Assembly: GCF_006542275.1 (NCBI RefSeq)
Contig: NZ_CP041217.1
Coordinates: forward strand, 1,225,501-1,289,500
Origin: Saccharibacillus brassicae
GTDB taxonomy: Bacteria; Bacillota; Bacilli; Paenibacillales; Paenibacillaceae
DNA length: 64,000 nt
Direction of reading: 5' to 3'
In this document: piece after piece, positions 46,061-64,000 of the stretch
Numbering within the stretch: position 1 is the first letter of the stretch
How the letters are laid out: the number at the start of each line of letters is the position of its first letter
The notes under the pieces: model-generated
Databases searched by the model: none
What the model saw: the letters and a program-made list of their open reading frames with translations, nothing else
Told to the model about the DNA's origin: nothing
Position numbers and translations under genes: made by a program

Positions 46061-47446
46061 TTACTTGGCCGCGCGGTCCAGTGCGCTCTGCGCCGTGGCC
46101 TGCGCTTCCTTGAGCGCCTGCTCGGCCGGCATGTTGTTGATCTGGACCTGGTCGGCCGCGACTTTGAGCGCGTCGGTAATCTTGCCGCCGGTCGGGTCCT
46201 GGAACGGCATCGACGCATGCGACGCCTGCTGGAGCGGAACGCTGATCTGCGGATTTTTGGCGCTGAACGCTTTGAACGCCGGATCTTCGAGCGCGGATTG
46301 GCGCACCGCGATATAGCCTGTCTTCATCGACCAATCGGCCGTGTTCTCCGACTTCATGAAGTACATGAACCATTTGAACGCGGCCTGCTGCTGCTCGGGA
46401 GTCGCTTTGGCCGGAATACCGGCCTGGCTCGCGCCGGCGACCGGCTTGCCCGCGCCCATCCCTTCCCAGCCCGGCTGCTCCATTGCGGCTACGACTTTGA
46501 AGTCGAGGTCGCCCTGGTCGCCGCTCGAACCGGTGTAACCGGCCGCCTGGCCTTTCATCACGTCGTCGATCGTCTTGTACCAGTATTCCCAGCCTTGTCC
46601 GCCGGAGTGGATCCGCATGATTTTGTCTTCGTGAATCCATTTGCGGAACTGCTCCCACGTGTCGATCCATTCCGGCGAATCGATCGTGACGGTCTTGCCG
46701 TCTTCGCTCAGAATGCTGCCGCCCCGGCTCAGCACGGCATCGGTCATATTCGCTTCACCCCACATCGGCTCCCAGCCGTAGACGGTCGTCTTGCCGCCTT
46801 CTTGCTTCGTCATCTTGGCCGCGGCTTCGCCGAGCGCTTCCCACGTCGTGAGCGACGCCGGGTCGATTCCGTGCTCTTTGAACAGATCCTGACGGTAATA
46901 CATGATCTGGGTCGAACCGTACATCGGCAGGAAATACTGCTTGCCGTCCACTTTTCCGCCTTCGAGGAACGTCTGCACGAAATCGTCGCCGTTGAAGTCC
47001 GACTCGGCCGCGATCAGTTCGTCCAGCGGAGCGTAATAGCCTTTGCGTGCCCAATCCGCGTTTGCGCTGAGGACCGCCGCCGGCACGTTGTTCGAAGCGA
47101 TCGCCGCCTGGAGCTTCTGCTCCGTCTCCGTATAATCCGCCTGGGCGATGCCGGTGACGATCACTTCATCCTGCGAAGCGTTGAAGGCGTCGATCTTCGC
47201 TTTCATGTTATCGCCGAGCTTGCCGCCCAGGCCGTACCAGAATTCGATCTCGACCGGCTTGCCCGATTCCGCGGCGGCTGGCGCCGCGGTCGCGACCGCG
47301 CCCTGAGGATCCGCCCCCTGCGAACCGCAGGCGGCCAGCAGTGCGAAGCTTGCCGCAAGCAGCATCGACAGACCGCCTCTCCGATAACGTGCGCTTGCAT
47401 CCGGCTTCTTCATGGCGAAATTTGCTGCGTTCAGGCGTAATTTCAT
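46061..47446 (-). CDS. Sugar-binding lipoprotein of a CUT1 ABC importer (UgpB/MalE-like)
   Basis: A 461-residue extracellular solute-binding protein (SBP family 1). The signal peptide ends ALLAAC with lipid-attachment C40. The N-terminal part before it is long because the ATG used (47446, eight bases after AGGAGG) lies 11 residues before another Met. The body has family features: IEFWYGLGGKLGDNMKAKIDAFNAS, FLPMYGSTQIMYYRQDLFKEHGIDP, and a C-terminal helical part that includes WFMYFMKSENTADWSMKTGYIAVR. It is the third gene after two permeases. The substrate may be a glycerophosphodiester or an oligosaccharide. Confidence 0.92.
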   Translation of the reverse strand: MKLRLNAANFAMKKPDASARYRRGGLSMLLAASFALLAACGSQGADPQGAVATAAPAAAESGKPVEIEFWYGLGGKLGDNMKAKIDAFNASQDEVIVTGIAQADYTETEQKLQAAIASNNVPAAVLSANADWARKGYYAPLDELIAAESDFNGDDFVQTFLEGGKVDGKQYFLPMYGSTQIMYYRQDLFKEHGIDPASLTTWEALGEAAAKMTKQEGGKTTVYGWEPMWGEANMTDAVLSRGGSILSEDGKTVTIDSPEWIDTWEQFRKWIHEDKIMRIHSGGQGWEYWYKTIDDVMKGQAAGYTGSSGDQGDLDFKVVAAMEQPGWEGMGAGKPVAGASQAGIPAKATPEQQQAAFKWFMYFMKSENTADWSMKTGYIAVRQSALEDPAFKAFSAKNPQISVPLQQASHASMPFQDPTGGKITDALKVAADQVQINNMPAEQALKEAQATAQSALDRAAK

Positions 47447-47500
47447 TCTTTTTGCCTCCTAATGGATGTCGGTTGTCCCTGTTCGGGTTCGACTCGGAAT

Positions 47501-48424
47501 TCAGCTCTTGTTGACGCCGGCGGACATATTGACGCTCTGCATGATCGTCTTCTGGGCGAACAGGAACAGGATCAGCAGCGGAGCGATGGTAAAAGCGCTG
47601 GCAGCCATAATCTGCGGCCAGGCCAGCCCGTACGAACCGCCTTCGACGAAGAAGCTGCGCAGCCCCGCCGAGACGAGCCTCAGATCCGGGTCTTTCGTAA
47701 TCAGCATCGGCCAGAAGTAATTGTTATACTGTTCGATAAACGTAATAAGGATCATGACGGCGAACGACGAACGGATCAGCGGAGCCATGATCGTCCACAG
47801 AATCCGGAAGTGCGAAGCTCCGTCCAGCTGCCCCGCTTCGACGAGCTCGTGCGACACCTGCAGGAACGCCTGACGCAGCAGGAAGATCGCGAACACGCTC
47901 ACGCAGTTGGACAGGATCAGCCCGGCGTAGCTGTCCAGCAGATGCAGCTCGTTCAGGATCAGATAGCTCGGCAGGTACACGGCCGTGCTCGGAATCATGT
48001 AGCCGACCAGCACGATTGCGGTGAACGCGCCTTTTAACCGAAACTTCATGTGGGTCAGCGCATAAGCCATCATGCTGGCGTTGATCACCTGCAGCACGCA
48101 GATCGACAGGGCCACGAAAATGCTGTTGAACATATAGCGGGCGAACGGCGCCGAATTCCACGCATCGGCATAGTTGTTCCAATGGATTGACTCCGGCCAG
48201 AACGTCGGCGGGAACCGCCAGATCTCGTCGTTCGTCTTCAGTCCGCTCGTCACCATCCAATAGAAGGGGAACGCCATCGCCAGACTGATTACGGCCAGCA
48301 GGATGTAGCGCGCGGCGCGGCCGAACCGTTCCCCGGCCGGGACGAACCGGCGGCTGCCCGCCTGCCCGGCTCCCCGGCGTACGGCGCGTTTCTTGCTTGC
48401 CTTGCTTGCTTCGGTCATGTTCAT
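47501..48424 (-). CDS. CUT1 ABC transporter permease (UgpE-like)
   Basis: A 307-residue permease with six transmembrane segments, starting about residue 40 after a basic N-terminal tail (KASKKRAVRRGAGQAGSRR). The EAA loop is ELVEAGQLDGASHFRILWTIMAPLIRS. The start overlaps the previous permease stop (ATGA), so both membrane subunits are made together. It ends VNMSAGVNKS, typical of UgpE-type proteins. The ATPase subunit is missing from the operon. Confidence 0.93.
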   Translation of the reverse strand: MNMTEASKASKKRAVRRGAGQAGSRRFVPAGERFGRAARYILLAVISLAMAFPFYWMVTSGLKTNDEIWRFPPTFWPESIHWNNYADAWNSAPFARYMFNSIFVALSICVLQVINASMMAYALTHMKFRLKGAFTAIVLVGYMIPSTAVYLPSYLILNELHLLDSYAGLILSNCVSVFAIFLLRQAFLQVSHELVEAGQLDGASHFRILWTIMAPLIRSSFAVMILITFIEQYNNYFWPMLITKDPDLRLVSAGLRSFFVEGGSYGLAWPQIMAASAFTIAPLLILFLFAQKTIMQSVNMSAGVNKS

Positions 48425-49305
48425 GAGTAGTGCACCAGGCGCCGGCTGATCAGGAACGACAATCCCGACAGCAGGACGCAGATCAGAATGATGATTACGG
48501 CGATCGCGGAAGCTTCGCCGACGTTGAACGTCTCGAACGCCGATTGGTAATACATGTACAGCAGCGTGCGCGTCGATCCGGCCGGTCCGCCCTGCGTCAT
48601 GACGTTGATCTGGTCATAGGCCTGCAGCGACTGGATCGTCAGGATGATCGAGAGGAACAGCGTCGTCGGCGAGATCAGCGGCAGCGTGATCGCCCGGAAC
48701 TTGTCCCAGGTGCCGGCTCCGTCGATCGAAGCGGCTTCCAGCAGGTCGGACGGCAGATTGCGCAGCGCGACGAGGTAGAACACCATCGACCAGCCGATCG
48801 ATTTCCAGATCGTGACGATCATGACGGCCACGAGCGCCCAATTCGGGTCCTGCAGCCAGCCGACCGGCGAGAATCCCATCCAGCCGAGCAGCAGATTCGC
48901 AAGTCCGACGTCCGGTTCGAAGATCCACGACCAGGCGATCGAGACCGCGACGGTCGGCGTGACCCACGGCGAGAACATCATGGCCCGGAACAGGCCGGTC
49001 GATCTCAGCTTGCTGTTCATCAGCAGCGCAAGCGCAAGCCCGCCCACGATGATCGGAACGACGGTGCCGAGTCCGAATGTCAGCGTCACCCGAAGCGCTT
49101 GATAGAATTCGGCGTGCGTCAGCAGATACGTATAGTTGTCCAGGCCGACGAAGAGTTTCTCGGGACTCATGAAGTCCCACTCCGTGAAGCTTAAGTACAG
49201 GATGTAACCGAGCGGCCCCATCCAGAAGATCAGCAGCGGAACGAGCGCAGGCAGGGTAAACAGCACCGCCTCGCCTTCCCTGAACGCTTTAAGACGCAAA
49301 TCCAC
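48421..49305 (-). CDS. CUT1 ABC transporter permease (UgpA-like)
   Basis: A 294-residue permease, first gene of the importer operon. Six hydrophobic segments; LFTLPALVPLLIFWMGPLGYILYLSF marks the first. The EAA loop is DLLEAASIDGAGTWDKFRAITLPLISP. The conserved QGGPAGSTRTLLYMYYQSAF sequence before the last helices is typical of UgpA/MalF-like proteins. The start is GTG with GGAGGA four bases upstream. The divergent GbsR-like regulator begins 197 bp away, with a dyad operator candidate between. Confidence 0.93.
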   Translation of the reverse strand: MDLRLKAFREGEAVLFTLPALVPLLIFWMGPLGYILYLSFTEWDFMSPEKLFVGLDNYTYLLTHAEFYQALRVTLTFGLGTVVPIIVGGLALALLMNSKLRSTGLFRAMMFSPWVTPTVAVSIAWSWIFEPDVGLANLLLGWMGFSPVGWLQDPNWALVAVMIVTIWKSIGWSMVFYLVALRNLPSDLLEAASIDGAGTWDKFRAITLPLISPTTLFLSIILTIQSLQAYDQINVMTQGGPAGSTRTLLYMYYQSAFETFNVGEASAIAVIIILICVLLSGLSFLISRRLVHYS

Positions 49306-55372: not shown

Positions 55373-55822
55373 ATGAGAGTCTGTTTGAACGGATTCGAGC
55401 CGGCCTTTATTGAAGAAAAAGAAGACCTGTACGCAATCGTCCTGACGCAGAACATCCTGTCGGGCCGATGGAAATATTTCATTCTCTGGTATCTCAAAAG
55501 CGGAACCCGCCGTTTCGGCGATATCCAGCACTTTCTCGGCGGACTGTCGCAAGGTTCGCTCACCAAGCAGCTCAAAGAGCTGGAAAAAGACGGCGTCGTG
55601 CACCGGAAAGTGTACCCGGAAGTTCCGCCCAAAGTCGAATATTCGCTGACCGAAAAAGGCGTTCGGCTGCTGCCGATTCTGGAGCAGATGGAAGCTTTCG
55701 GAAAAGAGTACGGGGAAAACGGGCCGCACGGAGAGCGCGAAGCGAACAGAGCGCGCGGGAAATCGGACGAAGCGGGAGAATCCGAAGAAACGACCGAATC
55801 CGGCGAAACGGAATTTTCGTGA
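55373..55822 (+). CDS. HxlR-family transcriptional regulator
   Basis: A 149-residue winged-helix protein of the HxlR (DUF24) family. The core is ILSGRWKYFILWYLKSGTRRFGDIQHFLGGLSQGSLTKQLKELEKDGVVHRKVYPEVPPKVEYSLTEKGVRLLPILEQM, nearly as in B. subtilis HxlR. There is one Cys (C4); the usual redox Cys before GKWK is replaced here, so thiol sensing as in YodB is doubtful. The C-terminal ~35 residues are Glu/Ser/Arg-rich and atypical. GGGAGG precedes the ATG. Divergent from the monooxygenase-nitroreductase operon, its likely target. Confidence 0.9.
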   Translation: MRVCLNGFEPAFIEEKEDLYAIVLTQNILSGRWKYFILWYLKSGTRRFGDIQHFLGGLSQGSLTKQLKELEKDGVVHRKVYPEVPPKVEYSLTEKGVRLLPILEQMEAFGKEYGENGPHGEREANRARGKSDEAGESEETTESGETEFS

Positions 55823-55827
55823 ACAAG

Positions 55828-55876
55828 AAAAAGGCATTCCGAGGCAGAAGAATCTGCAAGCGGAATGCCTTTTTTG
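55828..55876. terminator. Bidirectional terminator after the HxlR gene
   Basis: AAAAGGCATTCCG and CGGAATGCCTTTT enclose a loop with a GCAGA/TCTGC inner stem. Confidence 0.9.
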
Positions 55877-55929
55877 GCGCGGTCCGATTCGGATAATTTG
55901 CCCGATCCGGTACGGGCCGTGCTTTTCGA

Positions 55930-56005
55930 ACCCCTATTGTTGGGGTTCGTATTGTTAGAGCTCATATCGTTGGAGTTCGCATTGTCGGAGTTCTCGTTGT
56001 TCGGG
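55930..56005. repeat. Degenerate 15-bp tandem repeat
   Basis: Five 15-bp units of the kind ATTGTTGGGGTTCGT run downstream of the SLH-module stop codon (56032). A minus-strand frame through them encodes Asn/Ser-rich pentapeptides but has no ribosome site. Confidence 0.7.
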
Positions 56006-56031
56006 ATGCTCTTTTTGCAGGGCTCGGTTTT

Positions 56032-56871
56032 TCAGGGAGCGGTTTTGTCGAGCAGCAGCGAGACGGCCTGCGCCGTCTCCGCACGGCTTACCGTCGCCTG
56101 CGGCATGAACCGGTCTCCTCCCCGACCCTGCATCAGTCCGAGGTTCTTCGCGGCGGAGACGGATTCTTGCGCCCACTTGCCGACGTCATCGACGTCTTTG
56201 AAATCGGCACGTTTCCCTGCCGAGGACGCTTCGCGGCCTGCCCGGAATCGATAGGCGTTCATGAGCATGACCGCCATTTCTTCCCGGCTCAGCGTGTCTT
56301 CCGGACCGAACGTATCCCGGCTTCGGCCGCCTGCGATTCCCGCTTCGAATACGGCGGCAATCGCAGGCGCATAAGCCCGGCGGGCATCGATGTCCCTGAA
56401 CGGATTCGGCTTCGCCGAATCCAGGTCCAGTGCCCGGGCGATCAGCGCGGCGAATTCGGCCCGGGTCACGTCGCGCTTGGGCGCAAACGACGCCCCGTCG
56501 AATCCCTGCACGATTTGCCTGGCGGCCATGCGCCGGATCGCTTCATGCGCCCAATACGAAGCCGGCACGTCGTCGAATGACTTGTCGTAACGCAGGAGGC
56601 CGTACCGGCCGGAGCGGTCCACCTGCGCCGTCCATCCGCTGTCCGTCTGCGTGCCGCCCATATACTCAAGGCTTCCGTTTTCGGCGATCGCGTAGATGCC
56701 GTCCGGCTTCTGCGGCGAATTCCCGTCGGCGCGCAGCCGGAGCGTGACCGGCTTCGAGAACGCCTTCAGCGGGCGAACGGTACCGTCGGCTTGAACGACC
56801 GACAATTCGAAATCGAATATTTCGCCCGCAGCGGCGATCTCCGCTTGGCTGCGGCCTGCGGCGCGTTCAAG
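56032..56871 (-). pseudogene. SLH cell-wall-anchor module, in-frame continuation of the GH32 protein past an amber codon
   Basis: These 279 codons follow the TAG at 56872-56874 without any frame change. The reading runs from LERAAGRSQAEIAAAGEIFDFELSVVQADG, completing the beta-sandwich domain interrupted by the stop, to three SLH domains: YDKSFDDVPASYWAHEAIRRMAARQIVQGFD, NPFRDIDARRAYAPAIAAVFEAGIAGG, and DFKDVDDVGKWAQESVSAAKNLGLMQG, each followed by a TRAE/SREE/SRAE motif. It ends SLLLDKTAP with a normal stop. No ribosome site or promoter stands before it; a TTG at 56805 is the only possible internal start and would split a domain. Without read-through this part is not made. The frame is intact to its end, so decay is recent or the stop is functional. 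Confidence 0.85.
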
Positions 56872-59800
56872 CTACGCCCGGCGCACATCGGCGGGCAGCA
56901 CATCCAGTTCGACGGAGATTCGGGCTTGTCCCCATGCCGCAGCCGGAATCAGCGGCCGCAGCTGCATCAGAACGTCCGCCGGAATATCGATCTCCACTGC
57001 GCCCCGGACGATCTTCAGGGCATTTTCCCCGCCGTTCGCGGCCAGGTCGGCCGGGAAGAGCAGCTGACGCTGCCCCGGTTGAAGCCTGAACGACAAGCTG
57101 CCGGGCTCAAGCGGCTTATCCGTGACGTTCAAGGAACCGGCCGGAGAAACGACGTTCGGCCCCGAAGCGGGCGCAGCGGGTGCAGCGCCCGGATCGTTCG
57201 GATTGGTTGGGTTGACCGGAACGGACGGATTACCCGGATCGGTCGGTTGTCCCGGCTCCGCCGGTTCCGACGGACCGGTCGGCTCTCCCGGATCAACGGG
57301 AGCACTTCCCTGGACCGGCACGTTGAAATCGTCGACGTTGATATGCCCGAACCCGCCGGCCGATTGATCCACCACTTTCAAGTAAAGTTGTTCACCCACG
57401 TAGGCCGAAGCGTCCCAAATTTTGCGCTGGTACTCTTCGTAATTCGTCGCCGTTTCCTTGAACAGCTCCTGCCCGTCCGAGGCCCGGACAAGCGCGACGT
57501 ACAGCTTGTCCGGATCGCGTCCGCCGCTGACGAGGAAATCGATTCGGCCGTTCCCGCCGAGCACGAAATTTTGCGATTTCAGCGTTCCCGTCAAGCGGTC
57601 GCCGCCCGCGGCTTCGTTGAAGCCCCACAGATGATAACCGCCGGGAATCTTGTGCGACGGATTGAAGTAGATCGTGTCCCAGAAGAACGCTTCATCGGTC
57701 ACATGGACATTCTGGAAAGCTTCGCCTTCCGCGATCCAGCCGGTCAGGTCCCCCGTGGCAAAATCGTGATTGGGCAGTTCCGTCAAGCCGGGATAAGCGG
57801 AATTGTCCCAATCGGCGGGCACGTCGACCGGAGCCGCCGCTTTGCCCGTCAAAGCGTTCATGTTCCACACTTCCATCGACTTGACCGTAATGTCCTGATC
57901 GCCCCAGACCTGCAGCCCGAGCGAATCGTACCGGCCGACGTAGACGCGCGTCGTCAGCTTTTTCTTGTCGTTGGCAAACGCTTCGACGACCGATCGATCC
58001 AGGAACACGTGCAGCTTGAGATTTTCGCCGTCCAGGTCCACGTACCCGCCCTGAACGCCGTCCACCCGCACGTCCGGATCGATACTGCTTCGGGTCCGGT
58101 CCACGTTGAACGTCGAGTCCGCTTTGTCGTAATAGATCAGCGTCTCTTCTTCGCCGTTGTCGGAACGGCGCACCTTGAGCCCGAACTGCTGCGCTTCGCC
58201 CGGATCGATCTCCATGACGATTTCCAGCATGTCGCCTTTGACGTCCTTGATCGACCGGTTGGCGTCCGCCAGACTTTCGTTGCTCAGGTCGACCAGCTTG
58301 TCCGCCCGCAGGCTTTGCAGTTCCGCGATCGGCTCGATACGCAGCTCGTCTTGATCGTCGAGGCTCAGCGAGATCGGCAGCGCCAGATTGTGCGCCCATC
58401 CCGCCTGGTATTCGGCCTGCGGCGTTCTGACGTTCTGCACCATGGAGAAGACGACCGTTCTGCCGTCGGGCGTCACCATGCCGCTCTCCGCCGTCAAATA
58501 ACCGTCGCCCACGTCGAGTTTGGACGGCGCGTCCCGGTCGGGGACGAACCTGAAATTGTCGCGGTCCCACGTGCCGATCCAGTAGAAGACTTCAACGTCC
58601 CGCTGCACGTCGTTCGCCGGCGGAACCTGTTCCGGCTTCTCGTGCGGATTCACCATGAAAATATACTTTTCTTTGCCGGTGCTGTCTGTGCCGAGCGGAA
58701 GCAGCACCGGCAGTTCCCATACCGTGCCGAGTTCCGGGTACAGGCTTCGGTCGCTCGTATACAGCGGACCTTTGTATTCCCAATTGTACATGTCGTCGGA
58801 CACGTAGACCAAGGCCGTTCCGCTGCTGAAGTCTTTCAGGCCGGAAGTGACCAGTTGGTACCATTTGTCCGTCTCTTGGTCGTACCAGACGAACGGGTCC
58901 CTGAACTCGTTCGGGATACCATTGCCGCCTTGCTCGGTGACCGGCACCGGATGCTTGTTCCATTTTTCCAGATCGGGATCGGTCAAATCGGCCGGAGTAG
59001 CCAGTCCCGTCCGCTGGTTGGGCGACAATGCGTCGTTGCCGGCCGTGTAGAACAGCACCGGATTGCCGGAGCGGTCGTACGCGGCGCTGCCCGACCACGC
59101 GCCGTCGGGGTCCAGCGAACCCGCTTCGGGCGCAAGCGCCGGCCGCACGTTCTCCCAGTGGACCATGTCGTCGCTGACCCAATGGCCCCAATGGATCTGA
59201 TGCCAGTACGGGCCCTGCGGATTATGCTGGTAGAACAGATGGTATTTGCCGTTGTAATAGATCGGCGCGTGCGCTTCGTTCATCCAGTTCTGCGGAGGCA
59301 TCGCATGGTACTGCGGACGATGTTGGTCCCCGTCGAAGACCGCAGGGTCCTCGTCGATATCGCCTCTCGGAATTTGCGGAATGCTGCCGCCGTGCAGCGT
59401 CTTCACGCTGTCGTATTCGGCGCGAATCTCCGCGGCGCCGAGCGCGCGGTTCTGCAATTTCACTTCGTCGATCAGTCCGCTGAACATGTTGTAAGAGAAC
59501 AGGCCCGCAAGCTCTACGGGCTTGTTGTTTTTGCCGATCAGCAGGCTCGCGGAAGACGCGGTGATCGGGACGTTCGCGGGCGTATCCTGCGAAGCCACTT
59601 CCTCGCCGTTCAGGTACAGTTTGATTTTGCCTGCCTGCTTGTCGAACGTCGCGGCCACGTAGTTCCAGGCGTACTTTTCCAGCGGATGATCTTTTACCCA
59701 GACCTGAACCCACTGTCCCCCGATGCCCATCTGCGCGGACCAGGTGCCGTGCCGGTACATGCCCAGGGCAAAACCTTCCGCCTTGTCCGCGTCGGACTGG

Positions 59801-61773
59801 TTCACGATAGCGGACAGCTTGCCGCCGTCTCCCCATTCGTAGCTGCGCGGAGCGACCCAGGCTTCGATCGTCAGCGCGTCGCCGACAGGAACGGTGTCCG
59901 CCGCGGGAACTTCCACGTCGTTCGAATAGCCGTCGAAGAGCAGCGCTCCGCCTTTGACTCCGCGGGGCGTCCATCTCGGGTCTTTGGAATCCATGTATCT
60001 CGCGGCGTTGAAGACGTAGCGCACGTCGTACCGACGGTTCTGCACTTCTTCAAGCGCCTCCTTGCCCGTGCCTTCGTCGAATTTCATATGGAACACGCTG
60101 CCTGTCCCGTTCGTCTCAAAAGCATCGACGGCAATGCGGGCTTGGTCGGACGCGTCCACGATTTTGAGATACAGACTTTTGCCGTAATGCTTCTGCATGT
60201 TCCAGGAGATCTTCCCGCCGGGTTCGGCCGCGCCGGTTCTGGCCAGCAGCGTATCGGTCCCCGCTTCGTACAGGGCGACATAGGCTTCTTCCGGACGCAT
60301 GACGTCGATCAGGCTGAACGCGACCGTTCCGCTGCCCTGCAGGGTGAACGCGCCGGAAGTGATCGAACCCTGGCCTTCCGCAGAAGAAGCGGCGTAGAAA
60401 GTGCCTTCTTTGCCGGCTGCCGCCTCGTCGCTCACTTCAAAAGCATTCCCTTCGACGGTCCAGCCGGCCAAAGTGCCGGTCTCGAACCCGGGATTGCCGA
60501 TCGCGCTCGGGATCAGGTTGACCGCGATCGCTCCGTCTTCGGGCCGGCTTTCGTGGAACGTATCGAAAGCGTCGGCGAACAGCACGCCCCAATCCGAGAC
60601 GGCCCGATCGACGAGTTCGAGATGCAGCTTCCTGCCGATATACCTGGACAAGTCGGCCCGGTATATCTGCATGTTCGCCAGCCGCATGCCCTGGGCCGGG
60701 TCCGGGAACCCGTCTTCGCTGAATGCGTCGTTGCCGTATCTGGCGATCAGGCTGCCCGTCTCCGCGTCGCGGACACTGATGTAAGCCTGGTCCGAATGTT
60801 TGCCTCCGCCGAGCCGGAACGTGATCCAGCCGCTGCCGCCGAGTTCGAAATCGCTCGACCGCAGCACGCCGGTCGCCGCTTCGCCGGCTTTCCAGCCGTT
60901 CAGGTGATAGATTCCCTGCTGCTGATAAGGAATGTCTTCTTCCCACCAGACGCTCTCGTCAGAGACGCTTCCCGGTCCGAACGCGTCGCCTTCGGTGACG
61001 GTCCAGCCGGTCAGATCACCGGTCTCGAAGCCGGGATTCTGGATCTGATACCGCTTGAAGTCCGGCTTGATATCGGCCGCGAGCACGCCTTCGGCCGGCT
61101 CCGCCGGGTGATTCGTGAAGAACGCGTCGGCGAAGACCACGCCCCAGTCCGACACGGCGCGGTCCACGATCTCGATGTACAGCTGCCGGCCCTTATAATC
61201 GGACAGATTCGCTTTGTACGTCTCCATGTTGGCCAGCCGCATCCCTTGAGCCGGATTCGGGAAGCCTTTGTCCGAGAAGGCGGAATTGCCGTACCGGGCG
61301 ATGACCTGCTTCGTATCGGCATCGACGATGTCGATATAGGCTTTGGCCGGGTTCTTGGCGCCGCCGAGCTTGAAGCTGATCCAGCCGCTGCCGCCGAGTT
61401 CGAACGTACCGGAGCGAAGCGTGCCGGTGGCCGCTTCGTCGGCTTTCCAGCCGTTCAGGTGATGGCTGCCTTCCTGGGCATAAGGAATGTTCTCCGCCCA
61501 CCAGGTCGTCTCGTCGGATACGCTCTGCGGGCCGAACGCTTGACCTTCGACGACCGTCCAGCCGCTCAGGTCTCCCGTCTCAAAGCCCGTATTGTCCGGT
61601 TGATAGACGGAATCGGTGACGGACACCGCGGCTGTCTGCGGGGAGTCTGAAGCGGCCGCGCCTCCGGAACTTTGTTCGGCCGACGACGACAATCCGGGAA
61701 CCGCGAGTTGGATCAGCATCGCTCCGATGACCATTTTGGCCATTCGGGATTTGTTGAACGCGAATTTTCCCAT
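56872..61773 (-). CDS. Giant secreted GH32 fructan hydrolase (levanase/inulinase type), ended by an in-frame TAG
   Basis: A 1633-residue exported multidomain enzyme. Signal peptide 1-32. Two near-identical carbohydrate-binding-like repeats (about 58-218 and 240-400; GFETGDLSGWTVVEG..., LRSGTFELGGSGWISFKLGG, ANMETYKANLSDYKGRQLYIEIVDRAVSDWG) and a divergent third (about 408-550). A LamG/concanavalin-like domain (about 555-790). GH32 five-blade propeller (about 815-1150) with catalytic candidates E833 in NWMNEAHAP, D959 in FRDPFVW, E1020 in VWELP, then the GH32 beta-sandwich (to about 1345). A fourth binding repeat (about 1360-1505), Pro/Gly/Thr linker, and the start of another beta domain cut by TAG. 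AAGGAGG precedes the ATG. Last gene of the GH32 operon. Confidence 0.92.
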   Translation of the reverse strand: MGKFAFNKSRMAKMVIGAMLIQLAVPGLSSSAEQSSGGAAASDSPQTAAVSVTDSVYQPDNTGFETGDLSGWTVVEGQAFGPQSVSDETTWWAENIPYAQEGSHHLNGWKADEAATGTLRSGTFELGGSGWISFKLGGAKNPAKAYIDIVDADTKQVIARYGNSAFSDKGFPNPAQGMRLANMETYKANLSDYKGRQLYIEIVDRAVSDWGVVFADAFFTNHPAEPAEGVLAADIKPDFKRYQIQNPGFETGDLTGWTVTEGDAFGPGSVSDESVWWEEDIPYQQQGIYHLNGWKAGEAATGVLRSSDFELGGSGWITFRLGGGKHSDQAYISVRDAETGSLIARYGNDAFSEDGFPDPAQGMRLANMQIYRADLSRYIGRKLHLELVDRAVSDWGVLFADAFDTFHESRPEDGAIAVNLIPSAIGNPGFETGTLAGWTVEGNAFEVSDEAAAGKEGTFYAASSAEGQGSITSGAFTLQGSGTVAFSLIDVMRPEEAYVALYEAGTDTLLARTGAAEPGGKISWNMQKHYGKSLYLKIVDASDQARIAVDAFETNGTGSVFHMKFDEGTGKEALEEVQNRRYDVRYVFNAARYMDSKDPRWTPRGVKGGALLFDGYSNDVEVPAADTVPVGDALTIEAWVAPRSYEWGDGGKLSAIVNQSDADKAEGFALGMYRHGTWSAQMGIGGQWVQVWVKDHPLEKYAWNYVAATFDKQAGKIKLYLNGEEVASQDTPANVPITASSASLLIGKNNKPVELAGLFSYNMFSGLIDEVKLQNRALGAAEIRAEYDSVKTLHGGSIPQIPRGDIDEDPAVFDGDQHRPQYHAMPPQNWMNEAHAPIYYNGKYHLFYQHNPQGPYWHQIHWGHWVSDDMVHWENVRPALAPEAGSLDPDGAWSGSAAYDRSGNPVLFYTAGNDALSPNQRTGLATPADLTDPDLEKWNKHPVPVTEQGGNGIPNEFRDPFVWYDQETDKWYQLVTSGLKDFSSGTALVYVSDDMYNWEYKGPLYTSDRSLYPELGTVWELPVLLPLGTDSTGKEKYIFMVNPHEKPEQVPPANDVQRDVEVFYWIGTWDRDNFRFVPDRDAPSKLDVGDGYLTAESGMVTPDGRTVVFSMVQNVRTPQAEYQAGWAHNLALPISLSLDDQDELRIEPIAELQSLRADKLVDLSNESLADANRSIKDVKGDMLEIVMEIDPGEAQQFGLKVRRSDNGEEETLIYYDKADSTFNVDRTRSSIDPDVRVDGVQGGYVDLDGENLKLHVFLDRSVVEAFANDKKKLTTRVYVGRYDSLGLQVWGDQDITVKSMEVWNMNALTGKAAAPVDVPADWDNSAYPGLTELPNHDFATGDLTGWIAEGEAFQNVHVTDEAFFWDTIYFNPSHKIPGGYHLWGFNEAAGGDRLTGTLKSQNFVLGGNGRIDFLVSGGRDPDKLYVALVRASDGQELFKETATNYEEYQRKIWDASAYVGEQLYLKVVDQSAGGFGHINVDDFNVPVQGSAPVDPGEPTGPSEPAEPGQPTDPGNPSVPVNPTNPNDPGAAPAAPASGPNVVSPAGSLNVTDKPLEPGSLSFRLQPGQRQLLFPADLAANGGENALKIVRGAVEIDIPADVLMQLRPLIPAAAWGQARISVELDVLPADVRRA

Positions 61774-61800: not shown

Positions 61801-63246
61801 TCACCCTAGCTTATGAATCTGCACATTCCCGAACGCCGCTTCTCCCTGATTGACGAACAGACCGAGCCGGCCTTGTTCGATGTCGTACATGCGGGCGCTC
61901 ATCGCGACCCGGCCGCCGACGTAGATTTCGCAGATCGTGCCGTCGATCAGAATACGAATCCCGACGGCTTCGCCCGGCTCGTAATCGAACGGACGCTCCA
62001 GTTCGACTTCGTAAGGAAACGTCTTCCCGCCTTCTTCCGACTGCATGATCGGCCCGCGGAACGTGACGCGGCCGCGCTGCGGCTCAAGCGTCACGTAATA
62101 AGCGGCATCCAGGCTGCCCTGCGTCCGCAGCATGAAGCCGGCGCCCTGCGTGCCGGGCGAGAAGCTCAGGTCGGCCGATATCCGGCAGACCCCGGGCAGC
62201 TCGCCGCGCGTGGCGCAGGCGGCGAACGCGTAAGGTTCGCCGCACGTCAGCGTCGGACCTCCGGCATCGCCTCCGCCGGTCTCCGTCCACTCTCCCTCAA
62301 GGCCGGAGAACGAAGCCGGTACGGGCACGGAGAACGCCGCGTCGATCGACTCGGGCACCCGCGTGCCGAGCGTGCCGTCGGGCCGTTGGAAAATCTCGTG
62401 CACGACCAGATTGCCGCCCCAATCCCACGTATCGTAATCCTGTCCCGCCGCCTGCGGAGGATTCCAGCCGAACAGGTCGTCGCGCTTGGTCGGATTCCAG
62501 CCGAACAGATACCGCTTCGTTCCGTCGGATGCCGACTTGGCCGCGTAATAAGCGCGGCCGTCGAACGCTTCTTCGCGCGGCGAGAGCCAGGGGCCTCGCG
62601 GCGACCGGCTCATCCGGTAAAAAGTGCCGAAGCGGCCCGTATACGAAGAGTAGACCAGATACCACCATTCCCCGATCCGGAACAACTCCGGGCATTCGTG
62701 CGCGCCGACATGCAGCTTCGGCGCGTACAGCGGCGGTTGATATTCCCAATGCTTGAGATCCGCGGACGTCAGCAGCCCGACGCAGCCTTTGCGGGCTGTC
62801 GTCCCTGCGGCCAACGCGGCGACCAGCATCCAGTAACAGCCTTCTTCCTCGTTCCAGAACACGAACGGATCGCGCCAGTCCGCCATTTCGTAGATCTCTC
62901 CGTCCGGCCCGAACGTCTCTTCGGGCAGCTTCTCCCAATGCTTCAGGTCGGTGCTGACCGCATGGCAGACCAACTGCCTGCCTTCGGGGAAGACGCAGTA
63001 GAACATATGGTAGGTCCCGTCGACCTTGAGCACATGCCCGGTCCCGCCTTCGATGCCGCACGCTCCGCGTTCGTCGTACCGCACGAAATCGGTCGTGCCG
63101 AGCAGATGCCACCCGTGGTCCAGCCCTTCCCGGTGATTCTCCCTCCAGCCGTGCAGGTAGAACAACTTAAACTCCCCGTCTTCGTAATAAGGAATGACAT
63201 CGCCGACCCATGCCTGTTCGGGACGGTAGAAAAATTCCTGCGCCAT
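61801..63246 (-). CDS. GH32 family beta-fructosidase-like protein, cytoplasmic
   Basis: A 481-residue protein without signal peptide. The five-bladed propeller shows D16 in WVGDVIPYYEDGEFKLFYLHGW as nucleophile position, D126 in WRDPFVFW as transition-state stabiliser, and E184 in HECPELF as acid/base, which fits GH32. The C-terminal part (about 305-480) is a beta-sandwich (VYVTLEPQRGRVTFRGPIMQ-like strands; FDYEPGEAVGIRILIDGTICEIYVGGRVAMSARMY). It probably cuts short fructo-oligosaccharides brought into the cell. AAGGAGG precedes the ATG; it lies 27 bp before the giant enzyme gene and 46 bp after the partial GH32 gene, so one operon. Confidence 0.9.
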   Translation of the reverse strand: MAQEFFYRPEQAWVGDVIPYYEDGEFKLFYLHGWRENHREGLDHGWHLLGTTDFVRYDERGACGIEGGTGHVLKVDGTYHMFYCVFPEGRQLVCHAVSTDLKHWEKLPEETFGPDGEIYEMADWRDPFVFWNEEEGCYWMLVAALAAGTTARKGCVGLLTSADLKHWEYQPPLYAPKLHVGAHECPELFRIGEWWYLVYSSYTGRFGTFYRMSRSPRGPWLSPREEAFDGRAYYAAKSASDGTKRYLFGWNPTKRDDLFGWNPPQAAGQDYDTWDWGGNLVVHEIFQRPDGTLGTRVPESIDAAFSVPVPASFSGLEGEWTETGGGDAGGPTLTCGEPYAFAACATRGELPGVCRISADLSFSPGTQGAGFMLRTQGSLDAAYYVTLEPQRGRVTFRGPIMQSEEGGKTFPYEVELERPFDYEPGEAVGIRILIDGTICEIYVGGRVAMSARMYDIEQGRLGLFVNQGEAAFGNVQIHKLG

Positions 63247-63292: not shown

Positions 63293-64000
63293 TCAGCCGA
63301 CTTCCCAAATCGACCGCATTTCCCAAATTTCCAGCGACGTCACCTGCACGCCGCCGTTCCCCCATACTTGCACGCCAAGCGCATCGGTTCGGCTCGGATA
63401 AGCCCTTGTCGTCACGCTTTTCAATCCGTTCGCGTACGCTTCGATCATCGAGCGGTCCAGATACACATGCAGCTTGAGCGTGTCGCCGCCGAGATCCAGC
63501 CGTCCGCTCTGCACACCGCCGCCCTGCTCGCGCGGGTCGAGCGTCGTCTTCGAACGGTCGACGCCAAGCCGCGATTCGGCGCTGTCGTAGAACAGCGTCG
63601 TCTCTTCCTCGCCGCCCGGAGAACGTCTGACCGCAAGCCCCCATCGGTCCGCACCGTCCGCCCGCAGTTCAACCTTGATCTCCAGCATGTCGCCTTCGAT
63701 GCCGGACAGCAGACGGTTCGCTTCGTCCGCTCCGACGTCGCGGAGATCCGCCAGCTTCTCGCCGCGCAGACTCTCCAGCTCTTCGATCGGCCCGAGGCCG
63801 AGCCTGCCGTCTTCGCGCAGCCATACCTGCAGCGGAAGCCCCGCGTTATGCGCCCAGCCCGACGCGTATTCCATCTCCGGCGTGCGATCGCCCTGCGCGA
63901 TCGTGAAGACGATCAAGCGGCCGGTCTTCGGATCGACCATGCCGCTCGGCCCGGTAAAATGGAAATCGCCGACGTCGATCAGCTGCGGTTCTTCGTCGTC
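63293..64000 (-). CDS. GH32 fructan hydrolase, C-terminal part only (gene runs past the window end)
   Basis: The last 235 residues of a further GH32 enzyme. It reads in frame from the window edge through DVGDFHFTGPSGMVDPKTGRLIVFTIAQGD (the last propeller blade) and the family C-terminal beta-sandwich: GDMLEIKVELRADGADRWGLAVRRSPGGEEETTLFYDSAESRLGVDRSKTT, LKLHVYLDRSMIEAYANGLKSVTTRAYPS. It ends normally at 63293. The sandwich is clearly similar to that of the giant enzyme (DNGEEETLIYYDKADSTFNVDRTRSS; LHVFLDRSVVEAFAND). The N-terminal part and catalytic residues are outside the window. Confidence 0.93.
   Translation of the reverse strand, partial: DDEEPQLIDVGDFHFTGPSGMVDPKTGRLIVFTIAQGDRTPEMEYASGWAHNAGLPLQVWLREDGRLGLGPIEELESLRGEKLADLRDVGADEANRLLSGIEGDMLEIKVELRADGADRWGLAVRRSPGGEEETTLFYDSAESRLGVDRSKTTLDPREQGGGVQSGRLDLGGDTLKLHVYLDRSMIEAYANGLKSVTTRAYPSRTDALGVQVWGNGGVQVTSLEIWEMRSIWEVG

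Follow-up and report, generated by a model that had tools for sequence, protein, structure and literature searches.

The product of the inlA gene of Listeria carries a sortase-type cell-wall anchor, and it differs from the enzyme described here in that this anchor is not SLH and that the protein and its function are different. What the two have in common, according to parts of two reports (PMC12427964, PMC5131979), is that nonsense mutations truncate a surface protein, recurrently in some niches. In a sulfotransferase family of Paenibacillus, described in part of a survey of in-frame stops (PMC7918605), an in-frame TAG is likewise followed by a conserved downstream frame; there, TAG is present in eight sequences and CAG in ten, whereas the TAG analysed here was found in a single genome. 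The literature on loss of SLH domains in this enzyme, or on SLH-tailed GH32 enzymes, was covered in part and contained nothing on point; one report that came up concerns a Caldicellulosiruptor xylanase.

Intact orthologues of the enzyme, such as those of P. helianthi (L047), P. ihuae (L067) and P. camerounensis (L045), comprise GH32 domains, a spacer and three SLH domains, like the window (i.e. the whole 64,000-nucleotide stretch of DNA analysed here), and in the 30 orthologues with an intact tail the GH32 segment has 83-88% identity to that of the window. They differ from it in having Leu or Arg at the site of the stop and in encoding the anchored enzyme in one frame. On the other hand, tail-less orthologues, exemplified by those of P. 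nuruki (L057), P. pabuli (L072) and P. illinoisensis (L050), end without SLH domains, as the product of the window should, but their tail has been deleted or has decayed, while that of the window is intact. We consider it probable that in the window a recent, ordinary nonsense mutation has cut a multi-domain GH32 fructan enzyme off its C-terminal SLH cell-wall anchor, and that this is one of several independent losses.

Layout of the interrupted gene

The earlier note had described the frame at 61773-56032 (-) as continuous apart from one TAG, and this was borne out: its translation comprises 1633 codons, a single internal stop (TAG, 56872-56874, minus strand), 279 codons and the terminal stop. 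Pfam domains Laminin_G_3, GH32 N and GH32 C were found on the N-terminal side of the TAG and SLH on the C-terminal side, and the N-terminal segments of the enzyme appear by eye to be repeated. A Shine-Dalgarno-like GGAGG is present just 5' of the start codon, which is located 27 bp downstream of the preceding GH32-like gene. The features of the locus, in window coordinates, are as follows:

61801..63246, minus strand: upstream neighbour, a 481-residue GH32-like protein (PF00251, E 4.3e-21; PF08244, E 7e-09)
56872..61773, minus strand: enzyme frame up to the TAG, a 1633-residue secreted GH32 protein (translation, Pfam; signal-peptide-like N-terminus by eye)
61678..61773, minus strand: probable signal peptide, approximate (basic residues and a hydrophobic stretch, by eye)
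59425..59934, minus strand: Laminin_G_3 / concanavalin-A-like domain (PF13385, E 2.1e-24, residues 614-783)
58330..59307, minus strand: GH32 N-terminal (propeller) domain (PF00251, E 7.5e-65, 219.9 bits, residues 823-1148; alignment to 2xqr)
57862..58323, minus strand: GH32 C-terminal domain (PF08244, E 1.3e-31, 110.2 bits, residues 1151-1304)
56581..57102, minus strand: spacer domain interrupted by the TAG, approximate (coordinates transferred from the P. ihuae orthologue)
56872..56874, minus strand: in-frame TAG (translation; orthologue residues Leu 28/31, Arg 3/31)
56032..56871, minus strand: severed tail, 279 codons and terminal stop (translation, Pfam, tblastn)
56041..56580, minus strand: three SLH domains, outer limits approximate (PF00395, three stretches, E 1.5e-35)

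Both GH32 domains score above the curated cut-off, which places the enzyme in this family. The SLH domains 3' of the stop are intact, as had been claimed, but they lie outside the enzyme's coding frame, which sets its present product apart from SLH-anchored enzymes. With termination at the TAG, the secreted product would have about 1633 residues, break off halfway through the spacer domain and lack SLH wall binding; it would be exported and perhaps still be attached to fructan through its lectin-like domains. Judging by coordinates, none of the other GH32 matches of the genome is in frame with an SLH match, so the strain is probably without an SLH-anchored GH32 enzyme at present.

In a tblastn search, the 279 tail residues matched 19 orthologous loci along almost their full length, with identities of 43-56%, and in 18 of these the tail runs on from the enzyme, the remaining one (L060) having a frameshift. 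Since the open frame 3' of the TAG is homologous along its whole length to orthologue tails, a chance open frame is excluded. One could still suppose that the remaining 279 codons have a start of their own and give rise to a separate SLH protein, and a TTG-initiated frame of 257 aa, with its start at 56805, would be available for that purpose. This start, however, would lie inside the cut spacer domain, no signal peptide is visible by eye, a scan of 55800-57300 with a sigma-70-type consensus gave no promoter-like site, and 30 orthologues encode tail and enzyme in one frame, all of which makes separate expression hardly credible. For annotation, the SLH remainder should not be taken here for a separate gene. 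On the opposite strand, an open frame of 1619 codons lies antisense to the enzyme (56791-61650, plus strand); it is probably a by-product of high G+C content and codon bias.

The catalytic residues of GH32 enzymes comprise the nucleophile Asp in WMND(P), the Asp of RDP and an acid/base Glu. RDP and WELP are kept. The nucleophile motif (59266-59286 in the window, minus strand) reads WMNE(A/S/P)HA in all 53 aligned rows, the window included, and in all four outgroups, with WMNE in place of WMND, and may be the sign of a subfamily whose chemistry is unusual. An adjacent gene for a 771-residue GH32 protein (starting at 63293 on its low side) also has WMNEPHA. Just past the end of the window, in the same gene run, a single frame (L199:4306-6786; about 1291105-1293585 of G000:C1) encodes a PfkB sugar kinase (E 1.8e-61) together with a complete GH32 (E 1e-97), a probable fructokinase-fructosidase fusion. 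Downstream of the enzyme and on the same strand, a solute-binding protein and two ABC permeases (46064-49305, minus strand) form a sugar-uptake-like set. A scan of the 64,000-nucleotide window against Rfam found no family.

The site of the stop in orthologues

A contig scan for the enzyme gave 30 loci, all with Paenibacillus in the title, and of 394 genomes of the family that were scanned, 65 matched at E <= 1e-180. The final set comprises 55 rows: the window, 50 genomes with orthologues that share 80-89% identity with it across a GH32-containing segment of 669 residues, and four more distant GH32-SLH outgroups, which match through the tail. The other ten of the 65 genomes, with 43-59% identity, were excluded because they are too far removed or paralogous. 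A first alignment had 53 rows, including G058, one of these ten, and a second, identical copy from G235; neither is in the final tree. This tree has 13 open forks among its 52 inner branches. Host groups are referred to by their GTDB genus codes; the window's genome is in g1.

In the 31 orthologues with a full-length tail, which include one (G248) that has its own stop further on, the alignment places a sense codon at the TAG site in every case, Leu in 28 and Arg in three; Gln, Lys and Glu are found in none of them, and none shares the stop. In a previous alignment, whose 19 named loci come in part from the same genomes, Leu was found in 18 and Arg in one. With a sense codon in 31 of 31, the TAG is derived. 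A single substitution can turn a Leu codon into TAG. The comparison with orthologues suggested in the earlier note thus speaks for a mutation, which that note had regarded as the simplest explanation and which is now the best supported one; its proposal of an ancestral CAG, AAG or GAG, on the other hand, finds no support in the residues of the relatives.

The spacer of the P. ihuae orthologue (L067:12972-13649) was modelled with AlphaFold from a 16-sequence alignment (mean pLDDT 77, about 90 across most of the folded part). The model is folded at approximately residues 45-218, and the TAG site corresponds to residue 121, within a helix comprising residues 115-129. The matches retrieved by Foldseek, to entries with GAIN or ZU5 domains, are weak (best E 1e-4, TM about 0.4) and suggest a ZU5/GAIN-like fold. 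The stop had been said to lie inside a beta domain, and this holds for the domain, which is beta-rich, but the site itself is in a predicted alpha helix. According to the model, the TAG would fall in the middle of the domain and away from its boundary, and with the stop in mid-helix, termination leaves half a spacer domain. If a stop served to produce two functional forms, one would expect to find it at a domain boundary.

Read-through and the age of the lesion

The earlier note had listed, beside a nonsense mutation and a sequencing error, a leaky stop that makes a soluble and an anchored form of the same enzyme; on this reading termination prevails and a small fraction of read-through supplies the anchored form. 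The tail, intact and conserved, would also fit low-level read-through under selection, and the base following the TAG (+4) is C rather than U. In the part of a comparative-genomics paper (PMC5289835) that bears on this point, U after the stop is associated with low read-through, and a yeast study is cited in which a C at +4 leads to more read-through at each of the three stops. Moreover, Belinky et al. (PMC7918605), in the part of their survey concerned with this question, conclude that bacterial genes with an in-frame stop are in many cases no pseudogenes and that the stop may serve to regulate expression, which leans against a recent mutation; they also report that such stops tend to last only for short evolutionary times, which supports a recent mutation and counts against a maintained leaky stop. 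The +4 C is the sole local feature that leans to read-through and the only positive support for the proposal. The features that would characterize programmed read-through point the other way: the stop is shared by 0/31 orthologues, it is placed in mid-helix, and the RNA 3' of it folds barely better than its shuffles (z -0.93), which led us to reject a stimulatory structure.

The suppressor tRNA that the earlier note had suggested looking for was not found among the tRNA genes of this genome: Infernal detected 70 (150 of 177 first-look candidates were scored), ARAGORN gave the same number in the fetched stretches, and none of the 70 has a CUA anticodon. RF1 is encoded in the genome, with a score above the cut-off, and every match to PylS is below the cut-off for that protein (26 bits for the best one, vs 178). 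Recoding, pyrrolysine insertion and a reassigned TAG were rejected on these grounds. Altogether, regulated read-through at the TAG is unlikely, and a functional leaky stop that yields both forms of the enzyme appears highly improbable.

To judge the age of the lesion, columns after the TAG were considered conserved if the same residue is present in at least 90% of the other rows. The window keeps 91 of 115 such columns (79%), similarly to intact orthologues with equally divergent tails (95/120 in G366, 96/120 in G347 and 94/119 in G344), and four less divergent rows keep 88-96%. Over its comparisons with the 31 orthologues, the mean identity of the window is 41% for the 60 columns that precede the TAG and 50% (42.8-55.4%) for the part that follows. 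Among pairs with 87-89% catalytic identity, the 12 that involve the window exhibit about 51% identity after the TAG vs 63-66% in 36 other pairs, and 40-41% vs 67-68% in the 60 columns before it; at 82-87% catalytic identity the other pairs are low too (51-53% after and 48-55% before). On either side of the TAG, the tail of the window has diverged further than one would expect from its catalytic part. As the shortfall before the stop is at least as large as that after it, it does not point to decay caused by the stop; decay after the TAG was rejected, the spacer just ahead of it being the more divergent side, and we read the divergence as fast evolution of the whole tail.

Because the post-TAG columns are kept as in equally divergent intact orthologues, the lesion is either young or a sequence error. 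In the former case the tail would read as a normal orthologous tail for want of time to decay. The lack of decay, called notable in the earlier note, stands as an observation, but all it indicates is a young lesion, and different lesions, just as fresh, are present in the tails of two relatives. An error of sequencing or assembly would mean that the true codon is a sense codon and that the enzyme has its anchor, like those of most g9, g3 and g17 relatives in the sample. A solitary in-frame stop before an otherwise intact, conserved tail would fit such an error; however, the genome is a single contig with 99.94% completeness, none of its other 34 matches to the SLH tail is interrupted by a stop within the stretch that matches, and the error would need to have hit the very tail that independent lesions have broken in relatives. 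We therefore hold an error to be rather unlikely.

Repeated loss of the anchor

Among the 51 ingroup rows, the tail is intact in 30, broken by one lesion in three and lost in 18. The single lesions are the TAG of the window, a fresh TGA in G248 (L196), at a position where 30 of 31 other rows have Trp, and a fresh frameshift in the SLH region of the orthologous enzyme of G260 (L192). A deletion cuts the spacer domain in G201, and G105 and G149 have frame-broken remnants of the spacer. On the 55-row tree, presence or absence of the tail requires 10 changes (bootstrap 5-95%: 10-10), three of which are forced by well-supported branches alone; for tail intact or not intact the numbers are 12 (11-13) and five. 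Since the outgroups have a homologous tail, its presence is ancestral and its absence derived. A single ancestral loss, with all 18 tail-less rows as one clade, was rejected (p-AU 2.1e-05, a somewhat optimistic value as the groups were picked after the first tree had been viewed). Stops, a frameshift and deletions have repeatedly removed this anchor from orthologues. In contrast to the tail, the catalytic segment is free of stops in 53 of 53 rows (the window, the G235 duplicate and G058 included), chosen by their catalytic match, so that strongly broken catalytic domains would be missed. With a derived stop, sense codons in the orthologues and a tail that relatives dispense with, the lesion of the window has the characteristics of a unitary nonsense mutation.

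Sorted by host genus, the tail of the fructanase is lost in all 15 g5 genomes that carry the enzyme, even though the g5 enzyme genes are not one clade (p-AU 1.3e-4, optimistic in the same way), and in g2 it is lost in the single ingroup genome. In g1 the enzyme was found in only two of 16 genomes searched, P. nuruki, where the tail is lost, and the window, where it is stopped by the TAG; we did not rely on the pairing of these two enzymes, which has an SH-aLRT of 95 in the quick tree and only 73/93 in the careful one. The tail is intact in 18 of 21 rows of g9 (two with lesions, one lost), in 5/5 of g3 and in 7/7 of g17.

As a control, an unrelated SLH-tailed metallophosphoesterase of the window's genome was sought in 197 genomes of the family and matched in 43, its tails being judged from the extent of the match alone. 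Among the genomes with a match, 11 of 11 in g5 and six of six in g1, the window's genome included, have at least one that extends as far as the SLH region does, and four of these g5 genomes (G105, G113, G114 and G164) also carry a tail-less fructanase. On this basis we rejected the idea that g5 hosts have given up SLH anchoring in general; it is kept in g5 and g1 while the fructanase loses its anchor. The control itself is not uniformly tailed across genera, as 24 of the 43 reach the SLH end, most of the remaining 19 being weaker or partial matches. Another control (L207) was too rare to help: it matched in eight of 388 genomes, and in six of these the match ran through to its SLH end.

A sharper form of the favoured explanation is that the TAG was selected, a diffusible fructanase paying better in the niche of the host. 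It would account for the repeated losses of the tail next to a stop-free catalytic segment, for the uniform state of g5 in spite of its mixed gene ancestry and for the tails retained by the control in g5 and g1. However, relaxed constraint predicts the same pattern, and the incomplete reach of the control overall means that tails are missing or unalignable elsewhere too, so that adaptive release is to us a tentative suggestion, on the doubtful side. With similar reserve, we can imagine that the fructanase spreads between genera of Paenibacillaceae in an SLH-anchored form, spread being inferred from the disagreement between gene tree and genus, and is then repeatedly stripped of the anchor in certain hosts (15/15 in g5, both in g1) in which the control keeps its tail.

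The enzyme family offers a natural series that leads from the anchored form, through a single fresh lesion and a decayed remnant, to clean loss, and this series makes it testable when a polysaccharide-degrading enzyme is to be kept on the cell and when it is to be released. If the losses are selected, they would represent a parallel shift in which an enzyme that is bound to the cell and private to it becomes diffusible and shared, with the window at the first mutational step.
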